From Verrucomicrobiia bacterium (GTDB lineage Bacteria > Verrucomicrobiota > Verrucomicrobiia > Limisphaerales > DSYF01): a DNA stretch of 64,000 nt. The translations under genes were made by a program, and so were the position numbers. The notes beneath the pieces are model-generated. The model had not been told where the DNA came from and did no database searches. It worked only from the letters and a program-made list of their open reading frames with translations. Within the stretch, counting starts at the first letter, position 1. The number at the start of each line of letters is the position of its first letter. The stretch covers positions 1-64,000 of the forward strand of contig DASTWL010000072.1 in NCBI GenBank assembly GCA_035765895.1, read 5' to 3'. This document shows positions 37,544 to 41,606 of this stretch, piece after piece.

Positions 37544-37882
37544 ATGCCAAATACGCCGCCGGAAAAGGTCGACGTGCACAGCGAAGGATTTCTTCATTCG
37601 CTGATGCGCAAGCAGCTCAAACTGTCCATCGCCTGCGCACTCGCCTTCCTGCTGGTGCTGCTCGGCCTGCCGCTGGCAAACTACTTTGCGCCCGGGCTGA
37701 TGGCCACGCGCATCTTCGGCTTCACGCTCACGTGGTTCCTGCTCGGCATCGGTTTCTTCCCCGCCGTGTGGTGCATTTCGTTTTACTTCATCAGGCGGTC
37801 CATTGCGCTGGAGCAGGAAGAAGTAGCTGAAGTTGCAGAGGAGAAAGGGGGAAAGGGAGAAAGGGAGAATTTCAGCCGATGA
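37544..37882 (+). CDS. DUF485 (YjcH-type) membrane protein
   Basis: A 112-residue protein with two transmembrane helices (LSIACALAFLLVLLGLPLAN; FGFTLTWFLLGIGFFPAVWC), the standard partner of ActP-type acetate symporters. The last 15 residues (EKGGKGERENFSR) are encoded by the purine-rich left inverted repeat of the inserted four-helix ORF, so the natural C-terminus has probably been replaced. The stop overlaps the start of that ORF as ATGA. Confidence 0.85.
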   Translation: MPNTPPEKVDVHSEGFLHSLMRKQLKLSIACALAFLLVLLGLPLANYFAPGLMATRIFGFTLTWFLLGIGFFPAVWCISFYFIRRSIALEQEEVAEVAEEKGGKGERENFSR

Positions 37883-38316
37883 GAGCAGCCGGCAAAATCA
37901 CTCATCACTGGCAGTTGGAAGTCTATCAACTTTCCATCGCGACCGGAATGCGACTGTTCGAACTTTCCAAGAAGTTTCCACGCGAGGAGACATATTCGCT
38001 GACCGACCAGGTGCGCCGATCCTCCCGTTCCGTTTCCAGTCACATTTCGGAAGGCTGGCGCCGCCGGCGTTACGAGGCCGCATTTTGTGAGAAACTGAAC
38101 GGCGCTGAAAGCGAGGCGGCTGAAACTCAGACTTGGATCGAATACGCCGTCCGGTGCGGCTACATCACCGCCAAGGATGGCCGGGAACTTCACCGCGCCT
38201 ACGATTTCATCATGGGCAAGCTGGTAAAAATGCAGAACACCCCCGAAGTCTGGCTCCTCAAGAATCCACGCACGCGGTGCTGATCTCTCTTTCACCCCTT
38301 CACCCTTTCTCCCTTT
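37852..38316. mobile_element. Putative IVS-like unit: four-helix ORF between 14-bp inverted repeats
   Basis: AAAGGGAGAAAGGG (37852-37865) recurs as its exact reverse complement at 38303-38316, enclosing the four-helix-bundle gene and little else (465 bases in all). The unit separates DUF485 from actP, which are normally adjacent. The arrangement recalls intervening sequences in 23S rRNA of Leptospira and Coxiella, where a stem encloses an ORF of this family. Mobility is inferred from structure and position; no target duplication was found. Confidence 0.5.
37879..38283 (+). CDS. Four-helix-bundle protein (23S rRNA IVS / S23 family)
   Basis: A 134-residue all-helical protein: LEVYQLSIATGMRLFELSKK, TDQVRRSSRSVSSHISEGWR, RYEAAFCEKLNGAESEAAET and WIEYAVRCGYI. 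This matches the S23/four-helix family encoded in 23S rRNA intervening sequences and in diversity-generating retroelements (Avd). It is basic on one face, consistent with nucleic-acid binding. Its role here is unknown. It sits inside an acetate-transport operon, bracketed by inverted repeats. No reverse transcriptase is nearby, so Avd function is unlikely. Confidence 0.85.
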   Translation: MRAAGKITHHWQLEVYQLSIATGMRLFELSKKFPREETYSLTDQVRRSSRSVSSHISEGWRRRRYEAAFCEKLNGAESEAAETQTWIEYAVRCGYITAKDGRELHRAYDFIMGKLVKMQNTPEVWLLKNPRTRC

Positions 38317-38325
38317 CAAACCGAC

Positions 38326-40626
38326 ATGGAACCCATGCTCGCCCTCGCCTTCGACTCCTACATCCTCGCCTTCAGCTCCCTCACCGTCGTCGTGACGATC
38401 TGGATGGGCTTTCGCGCGGCGAAAACATCCAAGACCGCGAGCGACTTCTTCGTGGCGGGCCGCAGCGTGAGTGTGGGCTGGAATGCCAGCGCCATCTCCG
38501 GCGAATACCTCAGCGCCGCCAGCTTCATGGGCATCGCGGGCATGGTGATGTCGAGCGGTTACGATGCGCTGTGGTATCCGGTCTGTTACGCGTGCGGCTA
38601 TCTGTTCCTGCTGCTGTTCATCGCCGGCCCGTTGCGCCGCTTCGGGGCCTACACAATTCCGGATTTCGCCGAGGGCCGGTTCGACTCGCCGCTGTTCCGC
38701 AAGATCGCCGTGTGCTTCGTGCTGTTCATTGGCTTCTTCTACACGATGCCGCAGATGAAAGGCGCGGGGACGACGCTGGCCTACATCTTCCCGGGCCTGC
38801 CGTATTGGGCGGGCGTGGTGCTGGTGGGCGCGGTCATCACGCTCAACGTCGCGCTCGGCGGCATGAAAGGCATCACGCTGGTGCAGGCGTTTCAATACTG
38901 GGTCAAGATGTTCGCCATCTCGGTGCCCATCTTCGTGCTCATGGCGGTGTATGGGCATTATGGGAAACAACTCGGGGCGAATGGGGGAAACGTCCAACAT
39001 CCAGTGTCCAACGTCCAACGTTCAACGAACGGGACGAACGCTGCTTTGGAAGTTGGAAGTTCAAAGTTGAGCGTTGAACGTTCAGTTCTTCCGTTGACAG
39101 GGCTTGAAGTTCAAAAGCATCCCGATTTCCAAAAAAGCTTCATCAGCTTCGCGCTTAATTCTGAGCGTAAGATTGAGCAAATTGTTCCGGCACTTGCGAG
39201 TGATGCCACGGTTAAAGAAAAGGCTGACGTCGTTGCGGATTGGTTGACCGATGCTCCGCAGGTGGACGGAATGAAAACTCGGACAACGCTACAGACCATC
39301 GGTGCATATAATGCAGCCATTCGTCGCACCGTTTGGGTGGCAATTAGTCTGACAAACTCGTGGATGCAGAATGCAAGAACCAACCCGTCCTTTGGCGTAA
39401 AACAAACGCGCCAGCAAGCCGAGCTAGCGCTAGAAAAATTCTTGAACGAAGCTGGTATTGGCTTGGCAAGACTGGCTGGCGATGAGGTGGCAGCAATTCC
39501 GAACAGTGAAGCGGCGCAGTATGCGAAGTTATTCGCTGCGTGGAATTCGGCAACCATTGTTCGCAAACCGCTCCCCGAAAAAGCTCCCAAGGACGAAACG
39601 TGGCTTTCCCCCTTCGGCCCGCTCACGACCAAAGCCGCCAAGGCCGCGAAACTTTCGCCTGAAGAAGCCAAGCCTTACTCGCTGCTCTACACCTATTCGC
39701 TCATCATCGCGCTCATCTGCGGCACGGCGGGATTGCCCCACATCCTCGTGCGCTTCTACACCAACCCCGACGGCGGCGCGGCCAAGCGCACCACCATGTG
39801 GGTGATGATTCTCATCGGCATCTTCTACGTCTTCCCGCCCGTGTTCGGCGTGATGGGTCGCAACCTGTTCCCCGAGCTTTACTCCGGCATCGGCGCGAAA
39901 GGCACGGACAAGATCGTCCTCGAACTCCCGCGCCTGCTGAACGACAAATACGCGCCGCTCGGCTCAATCCTCTCCGGCATCACCTGCGCCGGCGCGTTCG
40001 CGGCGTTCATGAGCACGTTCAGCGGCCTGCTCGTCAGCATGACCGGCGCGATGGCCCACGACGTCTATGGCCGGATGCTGCGACCCAAGTCCACGCCCGA
40101 GCAGCGCATGAAGATGTTCAAGCTCTTCGCCATCGTCATCGGCGCGGTGGCGATGTTGTTGGGCAGCTTCGTTGAGGCGCTGGAAATCAACTTCATGGTC
40201 GGCCAGGCGTTTGCCATCGCGGCGGCAAGCTATTTCCCGCTGCTGTTCATGGCCGTCTGGTGGCGCAAGCTCACCATGAAGGGCGCCGCCACCGGCATGT
40301 TGACCGGCGGGTTGAGCGCGGTGGCGGCCATTTCGCTGACGAGCTTCAGCACGCTGGCGGCCGCGCCGGGCCAGGCGGGTGAGCTCTTCGCCGTGTTCAA
40401 ACCGTTGAATGACTTTTGGGCGCACCATCCCCTGCTCCGCATCCTGTGCGAGCAACCCGCCATCTGGGCCGTGCCGCTGGCCATCGGCCTGATGATCGTC
40501 ATTTCCAAGCTCACGCAAAAGGACGTGCCGGCGGACATCCGCATGAAGATGCTGGTATTGCACGCACCGGAGAAGCTGGGCCTGAAACAAGAATACATCC
40601 AGGAGCATCAACCCGGCGCGCACTGA
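38326..40626 (+). CDS. actP: ActP-like sodium/acetate symporter with large internal insertion
   Basis: A 766-residue member of the sodium:solute symporter family, about 200 longer than usual. The start (YILAFSSLTVVVTIWMGFRA; KTASDFFVAGRSVSVGWNAS; ISGEYLSAASFMGIAGM) and end (LPHILVRFYTNPDGGAAKRT; LGSILSGITCAGAFAAFMST) are canonical. Residues about 222-420 are extra: first a palindromic repeat read in frame, then a lower-GC helical segment (QTRQQAELALEKFLNEAGIG). The extra part lies between two transmembrane helices, and the frame stays open. The stop TGA is the first base triplet of a REP element. Confidence 0.9.
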   Translation: MEPMLALAFDSYILAFSSLTVVVTIWMGFRAAKTSKTASDFFVAGRSVSVGWNASAISGEYLSAASFMGIAGMVMSSGYDALWYPVCYACGYLFLLLFIAGPLRRFGAYTIPDFAEGRFDSPLFRKIAVCFVLFIGFFYTMPQMKGAGTTLAYIFPGLPYWAGVVLVGAVITLNVALGGMKGITLVQAFQYWVKMFAISVPIFVLMAVYGHYGKQLGANGGNVQHPVSNVQRSTNGTNAALEVGSSKLSVERSVLPLTGLEVQKHPDFQKSFISFALNSERKIEQIVPALASDATVKEKADVVADWLTDAPQVDGMKTRTTLQTIGAYNAAIRRTVWVAISLTNSWMQNARTNPSFGVKQTRQQAELALEKFLNEAGIGLARLAGDEVAAIPNSEAAQYAKLFAAWNSATIVRKPLPEKAPKDETWLSPFGPLTTKAAKAAKLSPEEAKPYSLLYTYSLIIALICGTAGLPHILVRFYTNPDGGAAKRTTMWVMILIGIFYVFPPVFGVMGRNLFPELYSGIGAKGTDKIVLELPRLLNDKYAPLGSILSGITCAGAFAAFMSTFSGLLVSMTGAMAHDVYGRMLRPKSTPEQRMKMFKLFAIVIGAVAMLLGSFVEALEINFMVGQAFAIAAASYFPLLFMAVWWRKLTMKGAATGMLTGGLSAVAAISLTSFSTLAAAPGQAGELFAVFKPLNDFWAHHPLLRILCEQPAIWAVPLAIGLMIVISKLTQKDVPADIRMKMLVLHAPEKLGLKQEYIQEHQPGAH
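38991..39084. repeat. Palindromic repeat inserted in frame within actP
   Basis: AACGTTCAACG (39017-39027) and CGTTGAACGTT (39072-39082) are exact inverted copies 44 bases apart. They are flanked by imperfect repeats of a GTCCAAC unit on the left and a GTTGGAA unit on the right. The opposite strand would read MDVGHWMLDV, a spurious peptide typical of dispersed repeats in this phylum. The element is translated as part of ActP. Confidence 0.6.
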
Positions 40627-40741
40627 CGGAGCGCGGCTGTCCCCAGCCGCAGCACCCTCGATCTTGCGGACGATGCTGGAATTGGATTCGGCGGTCGCCC
40701 CGCATCCGCACCCGCTGCGGCTGGGGACAGCCGCGGTCCGT
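40624..40741. repeat. REP pair (BIME-like), left copy
   Basis: Two 22-bp inverted sequences (40632-40653 and 40714-40735), each with an internal GCGGCTG/CAGCCGC hairpin, enclose a 60-base spacer (contains CTTGCGGACGATGCTGGAAT). The element begins TGACGGA at the actP stop codon. The spacer and arms recur almost unchanged at 41490-41606. Confidence 0.85.
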
Positions 40742-40847: not shown

Positions 40848-41492
40848 GTGCGCGAACTGGTGGCCGACAAACGGAAATGGTCGGCCACGTCACCGCAGGA
40901 ACTCGGCAAACGAGGCTTTCCCGGCTGGCACGAACGGGGCTACCTGCCACATCGTGACGAGCCGGGCTTGATCCAGTTCGTCACGTTTCATCTGGCGGAT
41001 TCATTCCCTGCCGCATTGCGTTCGGAGTGGGCGGCGATGCTGGAAGTCGAGGATGTGCCGGCGCGGCGTGAAATGTTGCAGGAGTATCTCGACAAAGGAC
41101 GCGGCAGCCGTGTCCTCCAGCAGCCAGACGTGGCGAAGGTGGTGGAAGATTCACTGCGGTTCCGGCACAACCAAAGTTACGAGCTTCGGGCGTGGGTGGT
41201 GATGCCAAATCATGTTCACGTCCTGCTCAAGGTGGGAAACGTGAGCCTGTCGCGCGTTGTGGAGGATTGGAAGAGATTCACGGCCCACGCAATCAACCAG
41301 CGGGTGGGCAGAAAGGGACAGCTCTGGTTCAGCGATTATTGGGACACTTACATGCGCCATGCCGGGCATGAAGCGCATACCCAACATTACATCGAGGCGA
41401 ATCCAGTGAAAGCTTTGCTGGCCCGCGAGGCGAAGCAATGGCCGTGGAGTAGTGCCCGATTGCGGGATGACTTCGGTCGACTGTGCCTTTGA
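40848..41492 (+). CDS. RAYT (REP-associated tyrosine transposase, Y1_Tnp)
   Basis: A 214-residue HUH-type transposase: FVTFHLADSFPAALRSEW, the HxH motif in RAWVVMPNHVHVLLKV, W-K-rich SRVVEDWKRFTAHAINQRVG, and the catalytic Tyr in THYIEANPVKALL. RAYTs are single-copy domesticated relatives of IS200/IS605 transposases that cleave REP hairpins. The start is uncertain (GTG at 40848 or 40860; no ATG). It is bracketed by two near-identical REP pairs, the right one starting at its own stop codon. Confidence 0.88.
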   Translation: MRELVADKRKWSATSPQELGKRGFPGWHERGYLPHRDEPGLIQFVTFHLADSFPAALRSEWAAMLEVEDVPARREMLQEYLDKGRGSRVLQQPDVAKVVEDSLRFRHNQSYELRAWVVMPNHVHVLLKVGNVSLSRVVEDWKRFTAHAINQRVGRKGQLWFSDYWDTYMRHAGHEAHTQHYIEANPVKALLAREAKQWPWSSARLRDDFGRLCL

Positions 41493-41606
41493 CGGACCGC
41501 GGCTGTCTCAGCCGCAGCACGCCCGAGCTTGCGGACGATGCTGGAATTGAATTTGGCGGTCGCCTCACCTTTGCACCCGCTGCGGCTGGGGACAGCCGCG
41601 GGCCGT
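41490..41606. repeat. REP pair (BIME-like), right copy
   Basis: A near copy of the element at 40624. The right arm (41579-41600) is identical to that of the left copy; the left arm has TCTC in place of TCCCC, so one hairpin loop is shorter. It begins TGACGGA on the RAYT stop codon and ends exactly at the acs stop codon (TAA on minus, 41607-41609). Confidence 0.85.

Follow-up and report, generated by a model that had tools for sequence, protein, structure and literature searches.

Background

The intervening sequences (IVSs) of 23S rRNA in Coxiella burnetii and Leptospira carry genes of the PF05635 family, which is also the family of the locus described here. In many bacteria such genes bear the annotation 'S23 ribosomal' or 'four helix bundle protein', no function being given, and to our knowledge no catalytic activity has been assigned to the family. 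The S23p protein of Xanthomonas is a toroidal homopentamer (PMC4990558), and a survey of CRISPR systems counts '23S rRNA IVP' among the associations of adaptation modules (PMC10910872). Arrays of short tandem repeats have been described separately, and three papers report 70-75 convergent inverted pairs of GGGAATC arrays in Xanthomonas (PMC4692102), paired hepta- and octanucleotide sites in Geobacter (PMC2700814) and TAACTGA arrays in Beggiatoaceae and Cyanobacteria (PMC4679880).

The cassette between DUF485 and actP

The window, i.e. the whole 64-kb stretch of DNA that was analysed, holds a PF05635 gene of 134 amino acids (37879..38283) between a DUF485 gene (37547..37882, profile match E 3e-9) and a gene for an actP-like sodium/solute symporter of the SSF family (38326..40626), all on the forward strand. 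In profile searches the ORF matches PF05635 and TIGR02436 with E 1.4e-27 and 3.9e-25, above the curated cut-offs (96.4 bits against 33.8 and 88.2 against 24), which bears out the four-helix bundle named in an earlier sequence-only reading of this DNA. The structures 2gsc and 2rld, with five chains in each entry, match the protein, hereafter called IVP.

On both sides of the gene a 7-8-nt repeat forms arrays, the two being inverted relative to each other. A repeat search places these arms at 37833-37868 and 38284-38319 (36 nt, 81% complementary), with a tighter pair at 37851-37869 and 38299-38317 (19 nt, 95% complementary) that contains AAAGGGAGAAAGGG, the exact 14-bp inverted repeat reported there before, and TRF finds period-8 tandem arrays at 37840-37869 and 38289-38318. 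The left arm (37833..37869, forward strand) is a tandem array of a GGAGAAAG-like unit with period 8 and is G-rich when read inwards. The right arm (38284..38319) is its inverted counterpart, C-rich on the forward strand, and its end at 38319 lies 6 nt ahead of the actP start codon. The sequence-only reading had located the unit correctly, but because the arms are tandem arrays it is slightly wider (arms 37833-37869 and 38284-38319) than the 37852-38316 given there. As also noted then, the tail of DUF485 passes through the left arm, which overlaps the 3' end of the gene, and its stop codon (37880-37882) overlaps the ATG of the ORF at 37879 as ATGA (37879-37882). The anatomy recognised at that time, an inserted unit with an S23 gene and stem-forming ends as in ORF-bearing 23S intervening sequences, is thus present. 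Between the arms there is only the PF05635 ORF, and no transposase or known recombinase was found inside the cassette; PF05635 is not a catalytic family.

A strict scan of the window found period-7/8 arrays in the cassette (period 8) and at one place inside actP (period 7), and none was seen in Markov shuffles of the window. The array in actP (38989..39082, forward strand) is an ORF-less hairpin array of CCAACGT units, translated in frame, and is possibly a miniature relative of the cassette arms. Similar in-frame stretches are found at the same place of actP in the genomes G006, G009, G040 and G024 and are seemingly missing in G053, G016 and G008, and in G000 (the genome of the window), G009, G024 and G028 this region of actP also has in-frame insertions that are larger and differ in length. 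Directly 3' of actP lies the ORF of a Y1 transposase (IS200-like, RAYT-type; 40990-41492, PF01797 E 3e-9), flanked by repeats, likely of REP type, that appear in translation as MRTMLELDSAVAPHPHPLRLGTAAV near 40664 and as a similar peptide, MRTMLELNLAVASPLHPLRLGTAAG, near 41529.

Arms at other PF05635 loci

The PF05635 family is present in 46 of 58 genomes of the same order. A search for further four-helix ORFs with the same repeats in the genome of the window had been suggested, and six PF05635 genes are found there, each within an inverted pair of short tandem units. The units themselves differ: GGAGTGC (L005), GAACATC (L006), GTTGATG (L001), AGTGACA (L002), GGAGCGA (L004) and GGAGAAAG (the window cassette), the arm pairs of L001, L002 and L004 being weak by score (23-30) and partly read by eye.

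Arms were scored in 95 loci of the order by aligning each left flank to the reverse-complemented right flank under a single scoring scheme. A score of at least 28 was reached by 71 of the 95 loci compared with 0.55% of 2000 random windows of G000, and 58 of 95 were above the 99th percentile of controls that pair the left flank of one locus with the right flank of another. The further statistics for the order rest on 69 to 71 arm-bearing loci, with a median arm of 33 nt and a median unit of 482 bp. Autocorrelation at period 7 is 0.64 in the arms and 0.25 in the flanks, and of 68 elements 45 fit period 7 best and 19 period 8 (64 together). The arms are G-rich inwards in 67 of 70 cases and show the opposite polarity in 3. 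The right arm ends at a median of 6.5 nt before the next start codon, the left arm is near the IVP start, and the cassettes are usually co-oriented with their neighbours, as far as rough longest-ORF calls of the flanking genes tell.

The same features were found across phyla. Genomes were scanned with an alignment of four sequences, representing one IVP subgroup, which returned 80 loci in Planctomycetota, Acidobacteriota, Chloroflexota, Bacteroidota, Cyanobacteriota, Firmicutes, Spirochaetes, Proteobacteria, candidate phyla and others. A score of at least 28 was reached by 65 of 77 loci, and 48 of 77 were above the 99th percentile of the control, although AGT-type units that the loci have in common inflate this control. 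Among the 47 elements scored, 44 have their best period at 7 and 3 at 8, and 57 arms against 8 are G-rich inwards. The arm unit differs from copy to copy and is alike only between close relatives, so that there is no constant terminal inverted repeat. Arms far longer than five units exist (L199, L022); L199, from Terriglobia, has perfect arms with 16 AGTTCTC units on each side, which suggests that the arrays of the two arms were recently expanded together.

Two other roles for the left arm were considered and rejected. As a device for stop codons in all frames it shows no excess in the order set (1.30 frames against 1.32 for column-permuted heptads), and the higher value in the cross-phylum left arms (1.94 against 1.41 permuted) could not be separated from the common AGT/TAG unit. 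Its richness in G does not signal the transcribed strand, because inverted arms give inward polarity on both strands.

Genes for GxxExxY proteins (PF13366) with inverted tandem arms are best read as a second class of cassette. Within the order, 25 of 30 such loci score at least 28, 20 of 30 are over the 99th percentile, and the best period is 9-10 in 19 of 24. The inverted tandem arms at the PDDEXK_3 loci L104 / L142 (G024) and L114-L143 consist of units of 8-10 nt (CACGGAG, CGCGAAGG, CGCTAAT), often starting with TTTAACC. The sequence-only reading overlooked this cargo, as it did the tandem make-up of the arms from 7-8-nt units and the arm sequence private to each copy.

Arrays are also found apart from the cassettes. 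In 838 kb of G000 there are 17 period-7 arrays against 0 at 18/21 matches, a strong excess; many of them are ORF-less, and arrays and hairpins are scattered. The ORF-less arrays match the units of the resident cassettes better than those of other genomes (25.4 against 17.2; 500 controls, maximum 23.25). Such scattered arrays could mean that heptads propagate themselves, by slippage or by hairpin-mediated copying of arms, and that the IVP and GxxExxY genes are carried passively, having been trapped between two arrays. The heptamer arrays of Xanthomonas and Nostoc (PMC4692102), Geobacter (PMC2700814) and Beggiatoaceae (PMC4679880) would fit this reading, these genes not being mentioned in the available parts of the papers. 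However, the rate at which PF05635 genes lie within arms was never approached by random windows, the period depends on the cargo (7-8 for IVP, 9-10 for GxxExxY) and the ORF-less arrays have the units of the resident cassettes. We find self-propagating arrays with passive cargo quite improbable.

Occupied and empty sites

Comparisons within the order indicate that the PF05635 cassette is mobile, the same gaps being empty or otherwise filled in close relatives. In G000, G001, G005, G006, G008, G009 and G028, direct reading shows an IVP gene in the gap between DUF485 and actP, and for G036 and G041 its presence follows from the similarity of the flanks. The two genes lie next to each other with no insert in G040, G053 and G016, which agrees with the earlier statement that they are normally adjacent and provides the empty site that had been proposed for comparison. 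G024 has a GxxExxY gene in the gap (PF13366, PDDEXK, E 3e-35) with GCGAAGG-type inverted tandem arms. The sequence-only reading took the same ORF without repeats in distant relatives as the mark of a stable operon member; in the relatives read, the ORF of this gap has inverted arms. A quick tree of the IVPs at the actP site gave no single clean clade (5 changes; row L075 mis-framed).

The gap between ubiX and ubiA has a cassette in G000 and an arm-like remnant in G002 and is empty in G001, of the same genus, and in G004. The DUF58-BatA gap has orthologous cassettes with the same unit in G000 and G003 and an unrelated IVP in G002, and in G004 it is empty with an ATGA overlap. For the L002 cassette no empty site was seen, the downstream gene not being found in near relatives. 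A recurrent site lies between the membrane-fusion and permease genes of RND efflux systems in four genomes of the order (L048, L083, L058, L071), the flanks being named from their translations. No near-identical cassette copies were found within one genome (the best 75% among the loci compared), and movement is therefore not frequent.

Plasmids give a closer view of a junction. The cassette L289 of Trichormus variabilis ATCC 29413 is missing from plasmids of Tolypothrix PCC 7601 and Nostoc linckia NIES-25 with about 98% identity, and a decayed remnant is found at this site in Nostoc C052. The filled site reads AAAAA GTAAT, then the cassette from AAATCAG to CTTCTTT, then GTAAT TAAC, and the empty site reads AAAAAGTAATTAAC. 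The 5 bp GTAAT, which contain the stop codon of the upstream gene, are probably a target duplication. In the pair pNsp_a/pNsp_c of Nostoc ATCC 53789, TTCTA stands at the junction, but these letters could be the last degenerate heptad. Target duplications thus amount to one clean (GTAAT) and one ambiguous (TTCTA) case, the other filled/empty pairs being too diverged. Cyanobacterial plasmids also have PF05635 cassettes within CRISPR-Cas operons (L291, L287, L305), once as cas10-[IVP]-cmr3, an arrangement of Picosynechococcus PCC 7003 in which the IVP is missing from PCC 7002, and twice, in two genera, as cas6-[IVP]-cas4. Such cassettes could explain the reported association of PF05635 with CRISPR.

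As these sites show, cassettes evidently enter gaps between genes, often at the upstream stop codon and usually in the direction of the host, so that the neighbouring genes stay intact. The suggestion that this type of element moves into protein operons is upheld by the filled and empty sites of PF05635 units. The rRNA element does not seem to be the parent type, as had been supposed. Screening around PF05635 loci for a 23S motif gave no convincing case and none of these loci is in 23S rRNA, and the rRNA element therefore looks like a special case. The PF05635 element seems to occur most commonly as an operon cassette.

The protein itself is under strong purifying selection, with a dN/dS of 0.03-0.08 at shared sites, where synonymous sites are near saturation. 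Such selection at one site over saturated synonymous divergence is also what a stable regulatory gene of the operon would show, if IVP bound the arms by its own start and that of the next gene and regulated translation of the operon, the arms not being transposon ends. The closeness of both arms to start codons and the occupation of the same gap in several families agree with this. On the other side, mobility is shown by sites found empty within one genus and on almost identical plasmids, by unrelated cassettes or other cargo in the same gap, and by arms that travel with the gene to unrelated operons. A purely regulatory gene is for these sites a doubtful reading, and a regulatory role additional to mobility can be true.

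Arms and gene as one unit

The arms travel together with the gene. Similar arms tend to go with IVP identity above 70%, and less related IVPs are without arm likeness. L012 and L018 have a protein identity of 77% and an arm similarity of 0.94 with unrelated flanks, and L030 and L046 likewise have arms but not flanks in common. The two arms of one copy keep their complementarity while the sequence drifts between copies: at shared sites, arm pairing within copies is 42.1 against 25.5 for arms swapped between copies at the same site (p = 2e-9, p-values over pairs being optimistic because such copies are related and the pairs not independent).

As another reading, the unit would be an RNA-level intervening sequence. 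The arms would pair in the operon mRNA and RNase III would cut the stem, as the sequence-only reading had in mind; the ORF would be removed or separated as in ORF-bearing 23S rRNA IVSs, and the unit would be tolerated as silenced or processed. For the orthologous groups that were folded, prediction gives stems of about 25-40 bp in cis, the whole-element RNA fold of the window cassette has z = -3.5 with the arms paired, the usual co-orientation with neighbours is as expected and RNase III is documented to process the IVS of Coxiella (PMC4990558). However, mismatches between the arms avoid G-U pairs in the sense RNA (58 sense against 112 antisense, p = 4e-5), which was replicated in a second set (47 against 92, p = 2e-4); in these two independent sets, A in the left arm where the right arm implies G is about twice as frequent as the reverse case. 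This bias speaks against selection on a sense-RNA stem, and coding or ribosome-binding constraints on the left arm may contribute to it. Some cassettes oppose the direction of the host operon, such as the IVP between the ribonucleotide reductase genes of Nostoc edaphicum, on the opposite strand, and the 7-nt period is left unexplained. We therefore hold processing of an mRNA stem to be rather unlikely as the explanation of these units.

Proposed movement

The unit in the window is probably a small mobile cassette of about 430-560 bp, with one PF05635 gene and inverted arms of tandem 7-8-nt units. As a homopentamer, the four-helix protein is predicted to recognise the units of its own arms, roughly one heptad per subunit, a match that is only suggestive because arms can far exceed five units. 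IVP would then use host nucleases and polymerase to excise or copy the hairpin-ended unit, which would be inserted with a short target duplication, and the ORF-less genomic arrays with cassette units would be miniature or solo derivatives. The predicted binding of arms by IVP could also serve to regulate the host operon and would then account for why the protein is under strong purifying selection.

Other drivers were considered. Y1 transposases are common, but none was found in G021, which has 7 cassettes, nor in G024 and G045. An Avd-like IVP might lend the cassette RNA to a reverse transcriptase in trans, given that PF05635 resembles Avd of diversity-generating retroelements (PMC10053308). 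However, no RVT_1 gene was found in G000 (96% complete, six cassettes), which largely refutes retro-mobility for that genome. Of 56 genomes from the order, 37 also had none, among them the cassette-rich G005, G009, G041 and G053, and we give this mode of movement hardly any credence. A part in anti-phage defence was rejected, since the one PADLOC match was weak (E 0.008), with an unnamed candidate as its target, and PHROG gave no match.

A wider reading can be put forward tentatively, as one that may well not hold. The cassettes would form a transposase-free mobile class across phyla, in which the pentameric IVP, or a PDDEXK nuclease in the parallel 8-10-nt class, mobilises any unit between its own inverted arrays. 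The arrays would drift while period, inward G-rich polarity and complementarity are kept, and the heptamers scattered over many bacterial genomes would be miniatures.

The cassette is probably an overlooked kind of mobile element. In the open-access literature searched, no paper links PF05635 or GxxExxY to inverted heptad arms; this novelty is provisional, with subscription literature and preprints outside the search. If PF05635 genes are genes of mobile cassettes, the family gains a biology, the heptamer repeats of Xanthomonas, Geobacter, Beggiatoaceae and Cyanobacteria may have a common source, and context associations such as cas10-[IVP]-cmr3 and cas6-[IVP]-cas4 may be passengers. The elements also pose the question of how a unit moves and matches its ends without a recognisable recombinase and with ends of unfixed sequence.

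Comparison with known systems

The IVSs of 23S rRNA are similar to the cassettes in size (428-444 nt in Coxiella against 430-560 bp) and in their complementary ends that form a terminal stem (PMC4990558). In contrast, the cassette lies between protein genes and the IVS in helix 9, 25 or 45 of 23S rRNA, the cassette ends in tandem arrays of heptads, each copy having a unit of its own, and its ORF is under strong purifying selection whereas the Coxiella IVS ORF is decaying.

Elements of the REP/REPIN type (RAYT Y1) resemble the cassettes in having short hairpin-forming repeats in intergenic gaps and a single-gene driver. The cassette arms, unlike these, belong to no fixed palindrome family, and the seven cassettes of G021 are in a genome where Y1 was not found. 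The Avd protein of diversity-generating retroelements has a four-helix fold homologous to PF05635 (PMC10053308), but unlike in those systems no reverse transcriptase was found in G000.

The heptamer and octamer arrays of Xanthomonas (GGGAATC), Geobacter and Beggiatoaceae/Cyanobacteria (TAACTGA) consist of tandem 7-8-nt units like the cassette arms, and in Xanthomonas and Geobacter they are often inverted pairs in intergenic regions, again like the arms. They have been read as G-quadruplex or regulator sites, with no link to PF05635 or GxxExxY in the available parts of these papers (PMC4692102, PMC2700814, PMC4679880). The PF05635 structure 2gsc comes from Xanthomonas campestris, and the link between arrays and PF05635 is therefore directly testable in that species.
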